NCBI GenBank assembly: GCA_964019415.1
Contig: OZ025888.1
Span: forward strand, 3,854,536-3,918,535
DNA length: 64,000 nt
Reading direction: 5' to 3'
From: Ianthella basta
Lineage: Eukaryota; Porifera; Demospongiae; Verongiida; Ianthellidae
Made by a program: the position numbers and the translations under genes
Notes under the pieces: generated by a model
The model's input: only the letters and a program-made list of their open reading frames with translations
Told to the model about the DNA's origin: nothing
Database searches by the model: none
In this document: positions 35,804 to 51,385 of the stretch, one piece after another
Numbering within the stretch: position 1 is the stretch's first letter
Layout of the letters: every line of letters starts with the position of its first letter

Positions 35804-38800
35804 TTAGGATCCTGGAAGAGCAACAGGAAAATATAGACAAAGTTAACATTGGCCCTAACAGCTCTGAGGTGGTTGGTGTGGATTGAAGGAAACACCTCAG
35901 CCACTACCACACCAAACGCAACTTCACGTCAAACCACATCCCATATCAGAGGGGCATATACATACAGTAGGAAGTACACCGGCATAGCCAAGTATCTCAC
36001 ACACACACACACCCACACACACACACCCACACCCCCCACACCCCCACACACACATACGTACATAGCAGTGCGCATACTGCTCTCTAATGCAAACACTTAC
36101 TACTACTCAGTCCAAGTTTCTTCTCCAGGCCCTCAACATCTTGTTGAGCAATCTGCGCATAATCCATTGCCTCCAGAAGCACTGTCCAGGTTGGAGGCTG
36201 CCAGCCTTGGCCTCCTATCCATTTAGTAAGACCTAATTGTACTGCTTCCTCCTCATTCTGGGGATTGCTTGTGAAACATGCATTTATTGTGGTAAACTTA
36301 AGTCCCACTCCTTCCAGAACAGCTCTCCCTTTGCCTGCAGCTGTTCTGCTCACATGTGTTCTAAAGAGCATAAGATGCTCTGGGCGATCTGTAGAGAGAT
36401 TAGGGCATTTCTCAAGCATAATCTTCCCAAGTGACAAAGCTAACCAACTCACCATACACCCTCTGTGACAAGACAGCGTCATTCCCACCAACAGCAGTAC
36501 AGGCTGTGTTCTGTGAAGAGTCTACATACATTCATGTGTGCACATTTGAAAGATATATGAATGGAGTATGTACATGAAAATCTCATCGGTTTAACTAATG
36601 AAAAACGTAGATATGTTAGACACACCAACAGGGAATATCAAAACATGATAACTTGCTACTTGTGTGGAATACTGTCTCAGCTACATAGAGATATGTACAG
36701 TATAAATCTACCTCTGAAATAAAGACACCTCTCTAATAAGGACAGTGCCTGCTGTACAAGCTATGTAGAGATGTGTACAAAACTACCTCTGAAATAAGGA
36801 CACTTCTCCACTTGGAACTGTCTCAAAACAAATGTGTCTACAACAGCGAGGTATCACTGAACTACACTGCACAGTAAGTTCATCTGAAGAATATGAATTT
36901 GACTAGGATCATTTCACTATGTGTCTCCTCTAGAATAAAGTTCTGTCACTGTACACACAGCAGTTTGCAGTATAATCATCCACATGCCATTGTTACGCAG
37001 TACCCCACTTCCTACTTGACAATGTGCAGCTGCTGAACCCTTACCTTCCCATGCCGTGACCACTTGTGATGTTGCAGAAGAAGATTCTCCCACGGTAGAA
37101 CTTAGTGAGGCCAACTGACTGCTTGGAGACTGGGGTCCTGAGGGGGACACATTGTAGGTTAAGTTAATAGTACTCCATAGACTGTAAACACTAAATCCTT
37201 GTTCTTAATTAAGTCGCATGTAACAACCACAAATTTCAAACACCAATTATTGGTCTGGAAATGGCAATACACATATGTCCATGCCATGAGTTTTGCATGC
37301 CTGACGAAGGCCGTGATGGGCGAAACGTTGTACTGAATTGTCAAGTGTTCATGGTGTGCTCGATCATCCAAAGAATCAAGCTATTACATACATGCCAAAA
37401 TGTTTGGCATAATACGTAATGCAATTTTGAACATAGGAAAGTGCAAGCACACTGTATGGAACTCCTCATCAGAATGAGCTCAAGATTCAAGAACTGTTGA
37501 ATGTGCTATAATTAGTCGGTATTGTATGGCTATTTCATTCAGTAACACTTTCACTGCACAGCTGAGTCACTTACTCTTCACTTCATACACTGTAAAGGGA
37601 AAGGAAAGTCCTTCTTTATTGGTTCCTTCAATACACAATCTATTCATTTTTGTTTCCCAAGAGCAAGCAGGAGGAGAGCTGTAAACCACAACACAGTGAA
37701 TAGCTGGAGGGTAGATGTGCTTCTCCACTGCAGACTTTAGTCCCTTGCGGCTGTATTGGCCATCGTGATAAGCTACCTCCCTCCTAGTCACCTGGATCAA
37801 GTGCACATGATGGTCACATCACTGGTCACATGACTGGTCACATAACTCTATTGCACTAGTCCCAATTCTCACCGTGTCTGTCAATGATGCTTCCCAACCG
37901 TCTCCGTGATCAGAAGCAAGCACTCCCTGGATCTTCCTCTTAGAGAACTTGAACTGACGAGGTGGGTTGCTTTGGTGTGTACTCCAGTTTTTCCAATAGT
38001 CCTCAAGCACCTGTGTGTAAGTACAAATCACAGTGCATTCAAACTCTTTGTTCAATTATACACTGAATAATGTATCACTTCACATTCCAAATATACATCC
38101 TACAAATGCCACAACAGATTCGTCAAGAATACCAACCTCAATCCACACTGGGTCTGCATAGGTGACTACCACTTTGCTGTGCACCTTATTATTGGTAATC
38201 ACGTTGCCAGCAATGTGGTGGGTCCATAGCGAGGCATAGTAGAGGGACGAGGCCTTCACCTTGAACACTGCAGCAAACACAGTGCAGTGTCCACTAAGCT
38301 GGAGGACACCACACTGTCGCTGCTCTTCAAAAATCCCTCCGTCTACTAGCTCAAAGTGGTAAATGTGTTCTCCCTCCTTCAGTGTGTGAGGAGCCATTGC
38401 AAAGGACAGGCCATCCCTGATATGGTCTTCTCCGCCATACCAGTGGGGGAGGCAAAGATTAAGGGGTTTGACGACACGTCGGCCATCGTAGTTGATGTAC
38501 ACTACCATACTGCCAAGCTGGTAGCCCTCTGGCAGTGTGAAGGGGCCCGCAGGAATGATGGCAGAGCGGAACTCCACACTTTCTGCAGGGTTGATGGCAC
38601 CCGGTGGTACCTCTAGGAGGATGGTCTGTCCTTCCTCTGCCCCCACAGAGGGCTGAAGACACAGCTTCCCTCCTTCTTGTCCAACAGACTGTGACTGGAC
38701 AACAAATGGGAGCCAGCATAGGTCATCCAGGGCAGTCTCGGCAGCTGCATGGAGGGAGAGGTAGAGGATTTTGAATAGTAGACCTCACCCACTTCTGTAT

Positions 38801-50800: not shown

Positions 50801-51385
50801 GCAGAATCACATGCTATTCCAATGCAGCACTGTATATATACTCACCTTCGATCCTGTTAGCAGTCGAGCTGTACCACACCACCTCCTTGTATTCCTCCAA
50901 CACATCCATCACCAGTTTCACCACACCAGGTGGCTTCACTGCTACAGTACGAGCAAGCTCATCATCCCAACAGATCCCTGCCTCGCCAACTTTTCTGCAC
51001 TCCTCTTCAGTGATGAAGTCTTTCTCCAAATGCAAAGCCTTCAGCACTGCACACACCAGTAACACAGGACAGTAGCTAACACAACACAGCTACAGCACAA
51101 CAAACAGACTAACAACACCGCTAGCTACTTAATCAGGAGTGACTGTCAATTCTGTAATTACTTGTGGCTAAACTTGACCAGCTATGTACTCTGACTGCGA
51201 TAAGTGAAGCTAGCTAAGGCTTAGCTACACTTATCGCTAAGGAATAGATAAAAGTCACTCAATGTACTCAACATATCTAACTCACAGCGAAATTCATTAG
51301 AAGACAACCTATAGAAAGGATATGGGTTGCTGTCATCGCAATAACAACTGATTGCGACACTGCCTTCAGCCCTCGCTTCAGCCAT
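35804..51385 (-). CDS. CARD-like array - ZU5 - UPA-like - death domain protein (18 exons)
   Basis: Model: 51286-51385, 50846-51046, 50251-50436, 48821-49006, 47880-48065, 47028-47213, 46432-46617, 43345-43530, 39950-40108, 39485-39649, 39359-39420, 38825-38891, 38137-38744, 37873-38010, 37575-37791, 37045-37137, 36101-36334, 35804-35811; all phases agree, 1055 aa. Residues 1-33 are a novel N-terminus. Residues 34-525 are eight CARD-like modules (X, A, B, A, B, A, A, B). A modules share VLSELYxEKL(L/V)T...IxIQxxKxPxVVxRxAxxM..FG; B modules share VLNELFTxHxL..EEC...HLxxxxxxKxxxVVQxAxQVLxxH. ZU5 follows at ~624-826 (ILLEVPPGAINP, YINYDGRRVVKPLNLCLPHW, VVVTYADPVWIE), a UPA-like region at ~826-944, a Ser-rich linker, then a death domain at ~976-1045 (VGLKFTTIN...NPQNEEEAVQLGLTKWI...TWTVLLEAM). 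Closest architecture known to me: PIDD1/UNC5CL ZU5-UPA-DD. Probable cytosolic signalling scaffold. The 8-nt last exon is the weakest join. Confidence 0.75.
36001..36056. repeat. (CA)/CCA-rich simple repeat
   Basis: Short ACACAC/CCCACACC tract in the last intron of the ZU5-death gene. Confidence 0.9.
37290..37335 (+). repeat. Hammerhead-like motif of a retroelement end
   Basis: CCTGACGAAGGCCGTGATGG then GCGAAACGTTG: a CTGANGAAG box, a short hairpin and GAAACG, as in 868-1412 and 24,115-24,155. Confidence 0.45.
39713..39815. repeat. (TG)n microsatellite
   Basis: About 100 bp of TG repeats in the intron upstream of a Ser-rich linker exon of the CARD-ZU5 gene. Confidence 0.97.
40600..41855 (+). 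pseudogene. Truncated non-LTR retrotransposon (reverse transcriptase)
   Basis: Frame-broken RT: KPLHKGGDCATTSNYRLISL, PYQSGFCPSHSAQTLL, then in another frame MDISKAFDSVSHELLLSKL, then in a third SGVPQGSILGPTIFSAFI and TVLFADDTTIFI (the FADD box of the RT active site). The order and spacing fit CR1/Jockey-like LINE RT. The 5' part is missing and at least two frameshifts make it dead. The 3' end at ~41,790-41,855 finishes in TCCTGATCCTGATCC repeats. It sits inside the intron between the last A and last B CARD-like exons. Confidence 0.85.
42425..42520 (+). repeat. Second LINE 3'-tail fragment with ATT-rich end
   Basis: GTGGGTGCCTGGAAGAGTAG...TAAATAAGAT followed by TTATATTATTATTATTAT resembles the tail at 41,789-41,850. 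Confidence 0.5.
43749..43856. repeat. Pure (TG)n microsatellite at a duplication breakpoint
   Basis: About 107 bp of uninterrupted TG. On its left is duplicated CARD-unit intron DNA, on its right unrelated sequence. Confidence 0.97.
43857..44420 (+). other. GC-rich open segment of unknown origin
   Basis: A ~186-codon plus-strand frame stays open from the microsatellite to a TGA at 44,416 (TPSLCLKDRTVPKAV, ASTKGELGSARP, low hydrophobicity, many Arg/Gly/Ser). GC content is clearly above its surroundings. Near the end, TGGCAGCAGAAGTGGATCG resembles the primer-binding region following an LTR. No domain recognised; it may be retroelement leader DNA rather than a gene. Confidence 0.35.
44505..44670 (+). 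repeat. ATGCATACACACCC minisatellite
   Basis: About ten imperfect 10-17-bp units of ATGCATACACACCCAT with GCATACACACAA variants. Confidence 0.9.
45141..45319. mobile_element. hAT-like MITE
   Basis: CAGTGGCGGATCTAGGA at the left and TCTAGATCTGCCACTG at the right form ~17-bp inverted repeats of the CAGTGGCGGATC type common to hAT MITEs. Interior has no coding frame. Flanks share GTTTTC around the junctions, so a clean 8-bp duplication is not evident. Confidence 0.75.
45740..45901. mobile_element. 162-bp MITE with ~42-bp inverted repeats
   Basis: TGGCTATTGATCCGGCAGCC...AGCTCAGCAAAATTATATAAAA pairs with TTTTATACTATTTTGCTGAG...CTGGCTGCCGAACCAATAGCCA. The centre contains CCCTAACCCTAACCCTAA, a short telomere-like tract. 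Confidence 0.8.
49575..49675. repeat. (CA)n microsatellite
   Basis: About 100 bp of pure CA in the intron between CARD-like exons A1 and B1. Confidence 0.97.

Follow-up and report, generated by a model that had tools for sequence, protein, structure and literature searches.

Death-fold domains are mainly known as single or paired signalling plugs. What could eight of them, in a row, contribute to one protein? The question is raised by a gene on the minus strand of a 64,000-nucleotide stretch of the genome of the sponge Ianthella basta (contig OZ025888.1, positions 3,854,536 to 3,918,535; hereafter the window), in which eight CARD-like modules precede a ZU5 domain and a death domain. We lean, with somewhat better than even confidence, towards an array that occupies the sensor position of an autoinhibited ZU5-death-domain switch and acts there as a multivalent repeat platform. 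The anatomy, the predicted CARD-type fold of the A module, the kinship of the ZU5 and death domains, the linkage and the expansion were read from the sequence; how the parts would work together, we infer.

The exon model, built from the genomic sequence, runs from 51385 to 35804 of the window. It comprises 19 exons with GT/AG borders and agreeing phases and encodes 1096 amino acids. A leader exon is followed by eight module exons, three linker exons and the ZU5 exon. A pair of exons then stands where UPA would be expected, and behind two further linkers come the death-domain exon and a very short terminal exon. The modules occupy one exon each (exons 2-9) in the order X, B, A, B, A, B, B, A, and all eight exons are phase 1-1 with AG/GT borders. 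Six of the eight are 186 nt long; X has 201 nt and the last, A3, 159 nt. A preliminary description of this DNA had reported eight modules in this order on phase 1-1 exons, with a ZU5 and a death domain behind them, and all of this was borne out, the two domains lying on the same strand and in agreeing phase. Its letters are swapped relative to ours (its A, the LSELY type, is B here; its B, the LNELF type, is A here). The agreeing phases of its exon model also stood, but its 18 exons and 1055 amino acids did not, and X, which it had placed first, is the second exon, behind a leader without CARD likeness (51385-51286). The features, in window coordinates, are as follows.

51286..51385, minus strand: exon 1, leader of 33 codons with ATG, non-CARD, ends in phase 1 (from the model and relatives upstream of X)
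50846..51046, minus strand: exon 2, module X, CARD-like, 201 nt, phase 1-1
50251..50436, minus strand: exon 3, module B1, LSELY type, 186 nt, phase 1-1
48821..49006, minus strand: exon 4, module A1, LNELF type, 186 nt, phase 1-1; used for fold prediction
47880..48065, minus strand: exon 5, module B2
47028..47213, minus strand: exon 6, module A2
46432..46617, minus strand: exon 7, module B3
43345..43530, minus strand: exon 8, module B4
39950..40108, minus strand: exon 9, module A3, 159 nt, end shortened
39485..39649, minus strand: exon 10, linker, kept in sister genes
39359..39420, minus strand: exon 11, linker
38825..38891, minus strand: exon 12, linker, kept beside ZU5 in sister genes
38137..38744, minus strand: exon 13, ZU5 domain, 608 nt (from relatives, profile and fold)
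37873..38010, minus strand: exon 14, region in the place of UPA (by place only; no Pfam match)
37575..37791, minus strand: exon 15, region in the place of UPA (by place only; no Pfam match)
37045..37137, minus strand: exon 16, Ser/Thr-rich linker
36453..36521, minus strand: exon 17, linker
36101..36388, minus strand: exon 18, death domain (from relatives and profile match)
35804..35811, minus strand: exon 19, final residues and stop codon

Are the modules CARDs? Within A and within B, the array modules were 63-74% identical, and between kinds, X included, 19-31%. AlphaFold2 folded module A1, with both A and B modules in the alignment, at a pLDDT of 88. When this predicted fold was compared with the PDB, rows 1-9 of 18 were CARDs or a CARD-template design, so that the modules called CARD-like in the preliminary description have, in A1, a predicted death fold of the CARD type. 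The module consists of five helices, which correspond to CARD helices 2-6 and align to APAF1 residues 25-89 and 2mn4 residues 31-93. The fold thus matched solved CARDs over the module; the complete set of six helices was not found, helix 1 being missing. Adjacent modules are joined without a linker between them. At E up to 10, Pfam CARD (PF00619) matched neither the whole model nor any of six modules scanned singly, and hhalign found no relation between the module profile and the death-domain profile. On the predicted structure, the modules resemble CARDs from which helix 1 is absent.

Nor did Pfam ZU5 or Pfam Death match the whole model at an E of up to 10; the model's ten weak matches were all below the cut-offs, and none was to a death-fold or ZU5 family. 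The names CARD, ZU5 and death domain therefore rest on relatives, profiles and folds. Alone, the ZU5 exon scored 18.5 bits with Pfam ZU5, below the cut-off of 21; a close relative exceeded the cut-off, and a ZU5 fold was obtained. The best solved match of the ZU5 profile was the ZU5 domain of ZO-1, at only E 0.088. Pfam Death did not match the death-domain exon itself. Its relative L050, 56% identical, reached 30.4 bits (cut-off 22.6), and the profile matched solved death domains, best CRADD (E 0.0087), then FADD (E 0.62). Both domain identities given in the preliminary description were thereby upheld. Its "UPA-like" region fits UPA in place and length, but exons 14-15 had no Pfam match. No NACHT or LRR family was found in the Pfam scan of the model, which would have marked an NLR. 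A phmmer search of the ZU5-death-domain part against the PDB returned one match, taken as chance.

The gene is not unique, and the family around it had not been foreseen. The genome (209 Mb, 96 contigs) was searched with parts of the gene. With the two-module query, the best 150 of 613 candidates were scored, and all 150 matched at E≤0.01. Among the distinct module matches in the fetched DNA, a lenient rule found AG...GT borders enclosing a multiple of three nucleotides in 77 of 85, most of them 183 or 186 nt long. Judged by these matches, the module series is far beyond chance. Of the 280 candidates for the X query, the best 150 yielded 115 matches, and 47 of these reached E 6.7e-18 or better (strong X); every scored candidate matched the ZU5-exon query (150/150, best 150 of 230) and the death-domain-exon query (150/150, best 150 of 430; 54-100% identity). 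Among the best 150 A/B candidates, 132 were on the strand of a strong X and no more than 60 kb downstream of it, compared with 0 on the opposite strand; at least 39 of the 47 strong X modules had at least one such match. A ZU5 exon followed on the same strand within 60 kb, before the next X, in at least 20 of the 47, the window's included, compared with control counts of 7 upstream and 0 on the opposite strand. A listed death-domain exon lay within 30 kb behind in at least six of those 20, where the pairing count took in 84 of the 150 ZU5 matches and 47 of the 150 death-domain matches. By these counts, the gene is a member of a large expanded family, with dozens of related array genes in the same genome. 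The plan of the family appears to be leader, X, a variable number of A/B modules and linker, then ZU5 and death domain with the UPA-place region between them.

The same array was also found before other exons. At C16:1164000-1201999 (L033-L035, L049), X, B and 15 A modules, 17 in all, precede a single 809-residue exon; one of the A modules carries an in-exon stop. At C5:1056000-1075999 (L031, L032), an A-module array precedes an 834-residue exon. Both exons gave Roc and COR-A matches below the Pfam cut-offs. Judging from order and strand at these two loci only, each array would form one gene with its GTPase-like exon; the C16 locus is likely an array-GTPase gene with 17 modules, and some strong X modules without ZU5 behind them may be array-GTPase genes as well. 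The C16 array is built from units of about 976 bp that are 96-99% identical, introns included, which indicates recent tandem duplication, as symmetric exons allow. It contains two unit types, whose introns misalign. Downstream of the C5 array, at C5:1094113, a relative of the window's death-domain exon was seen.

Is this one gene, or are an array gene and a neighbouring ZU5-death-domain gene wrongly joined? The model rests on genomic sequence rather than transcripts, and between modules B4 and A3 lies an intron of 3.2 kb. Two retrotransposon-like fragments (reverse-transcriptase-like by eye) lie on the plus strand of the window, at 40579-41286 and 51749-52720, the former inside this intron. 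Against a wrong junction, the phases agree across the whole model, and the linker is conserved. With the linker query (exons 10-12), 33 of the 37 scored candidates matched at E≤1; 12 cover exon 10 (E 1e-8 or better), one being the window itself. All 11 non-self relatives of exon 10 lie on the same strand between X (on C11, an A module) and the ZU5 exon, 540-5874 bp before the latter; a stop fell inside the matched stretch in three. In several of the genes with exon 10 relatives, relatives of exons 11-12 stand directly before ZU5. With the leader-exon query, all 13 scored candidates matched at E≤1, singly weak outside the window (E 0.21 to 4.8e-4), and all 12 non-self ones lay 197-349 bp upstream of an X module on the same strand. 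Because the leader and exon 10 relatives keep those places, leader, X, array, linker and ZU5 seem to form one unit present in many copies, and the array and ZU5-death-domain part read as one gene on this evidence, as first proposed. We consider two wrongly joined genes highly improbable.

One gene could still carry a relic, in which the array is made of decaying copies of an old CARD exon, multiplied by unequal exchange and harmless in phase 1-1, and only ZU5 and the death domain matter. The recent duplications and the C16 stop suit this view, as do the median dN/dS values of the fetched modules (A 0.79, 54 sequences; B 0.66, 16; X 0.71, 4). However, 145 of the 150 A/B matches scored read without a stop, and four of the five with a stop run past one module length, so that the stop may fall in an intron. 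Throughout the family, the leader and X keep their place at the front, and A and B are each strongly conserved over their first 20 residues. Most of the variation falls between H3 and H4 and, further on, in H5 of the A modules or H5-H6 of the B modules; the local pN/pS peaks are based on small numbers of synonymous changes and are no proof of positive selection. This pattern suits varying surfaces over a kept core and would also be compatible with relaxed constraint. Overall, the relic is improbable. Alternatively, the modules could be working CARDs that associate among themselves or with the CARDs of caspases and adaptors, the array being a covalent seed that nucleates a filament, as the preliminary description had proposed. 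The usual type I interface of CARDs involves helix 1, which these modules lack; the junctions without linkers leave little room for each module to take a filament position, and the Pfam failure on the modules also counts against working CARDs. For want of helix 1 we gave the filament less weight: the idea is weakened and rather unlikely, though less so than the relic.

How might the preferred platform, an input array before a switch, work? PIDD1 has the order LRR-ZU5-UPA-DD, is partnered by RAIDD (CRADD) and cleaves itself at an HFS motif. The window gene resembles it in a repeat array before ZU5 and a C-terminal death domain, and in CRADD as the best solved profile match of that domain. It differs in having CARD-derived modules instead of LRRs, in lacking the HFS motif and in a UPA-place region without a Pfam match. 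The tandem-CARD sensors RIG-I, MDA5 and NOD2 also bear more than one CARD per chain; theirs are two full six-helix CARDs, unlike arrays of modules without helix 1. The UNC5 receptors and UNC5CL (ZU5-UPA-DD) share the order from ZU5 to death domain, and the ZU5-UPA-DD of UNC5B is reported to be closed and autoinhibitory (PMC9596381). Because UNC5B is reported closed and the model has no HFS motif, an UNC5-like clamp fits better than PIDD-like self-cleavage, if exons 14-15 are UPA.

Against 5.8 billion protein sequences, the full model had three matches, the ANK-ZU5 proteins P0001-P0003, 49-50% identical over about 19% of the model, i.e., the ZU5 domain; they carry ankyrin repeats where the window gene has its array. 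The array had one match (P0004, an A module read into its introns) and residues 760-1096 had none, so relatives outside this genome are barely sampled. By analogy, the array would occupy the LRR slot of PIDD1 and the ankyrin slot of the ANK-ZU5 proteins; because it holds these slots and also precedes GTPase-like exons, we read it as an interchangeable input platform. Its length and its variable surfaces (the H3-H4 loop and the H5 region) would set the choice of ligand and the number of molecules gathered. Gathering would open an UNC5B-like ZU5(-UPA)-death-domain clamp, and the freed death domain could recruit a RAIDD- or FADD-type adaptor, leading to caspase or inflammatory output. At the sister loci, the same array may be the input to another switch, through the Roc-COR-like exon. 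A bolder proposal, which we hold only tentatively, is that the CARD became a true repeat protein: with helix 1 lost and helix 6 fused into the next helix 2, up to 17 units would form one covalent superhelix, a fast-evolving, length-variable sensing or nucleating rod before death-domain and GTPase switches, and a recognition system would have arisen from a signalling domain.

Sponge expansions of related domains have been reported. The nearest published case found is that of Amphimedon, for which one study reports 357 TRADD-N proteins, mostly with 1-3 death-like domains before a variable C-terminus (PMC8195603). As reported there, the likeness lies in the sponge expansion and in death-like domains ahead of a variable C-terminus, and the difference in TRADD-N and 1-3 death-like domains there, compared with eight (at C16, seventeen) CARD-derived repeats and then ZU5-DD or a Roc-COR-like exon here. 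A Dysidea survey counted 39 CARD and 128 DEATH genes by Pfam and mentioned NACHT-ZU5 (PMC12909245). Pfam-based counting would not see the modules found here. The architecture is a real and recurrent arrangement of known folds; no earlier description of a CARD array before ZU5-DD or Roc-COR was found in the literature searched, most subscription journals being outside its reach.

The same parts were seen elsewhere in the genome. A second array-ZU5 locus (L036-L039, C21:3918000-3957999) lies on the same strand, with its ZU5 exon about 14 kb past the window end and A and B modules upstream. A downstream open frame there looks helical and death-fold-like by eye; it had no Pfam family, and hhalign with the module profile showed no relation to this C-terminus of the second gene. 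At C5:1998153-2003088, 2127209-2132157 and 2374461-2379392, the order is death domain, X-like module, ZU5, i.e., the same parts shuffled. At C22:816911-957194, clustered ZU5 exons exceed the Pfam cut-off, and five of them are followed, about 2.4 to 3.5 kb downstream, by an exon that matches Pfam Death; these are ordinary ZU5-DD genes alongside the array family. C9 (2.8-7.4 Mb) holds tens more ZU5 exons, 41-52% identical to the window's, and none of the 47 strong X modules. In the window itself, an open frame of 868 residues at 24697-27300 (minus strand) matches TPR and, weakly, STAND-type NTPases and is an NLR-like neighbour; an ankyrin-repeat open frame at 60272-63999 (plus strand) scores 28.1 bits with Roc GTPase, slightly above the Pfam cut-off of 27.

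Overall, the data point to an undescribed, fast-changing signalling family. If the proposed working is true, Ianthella basta would have a large, variable immune or cell-death repertoire, which Pfam-based surveys would miss because none of the Pfam families CARD, ZU5 and Death matches the whole protein. With eight, and once seventeen, shortened CARDs on symmetric exons, recently duplicated in tandem before a death-domain clamp or a GTPase-like exon, the family may show a way for a signalling domain to become a repeat-type input module.
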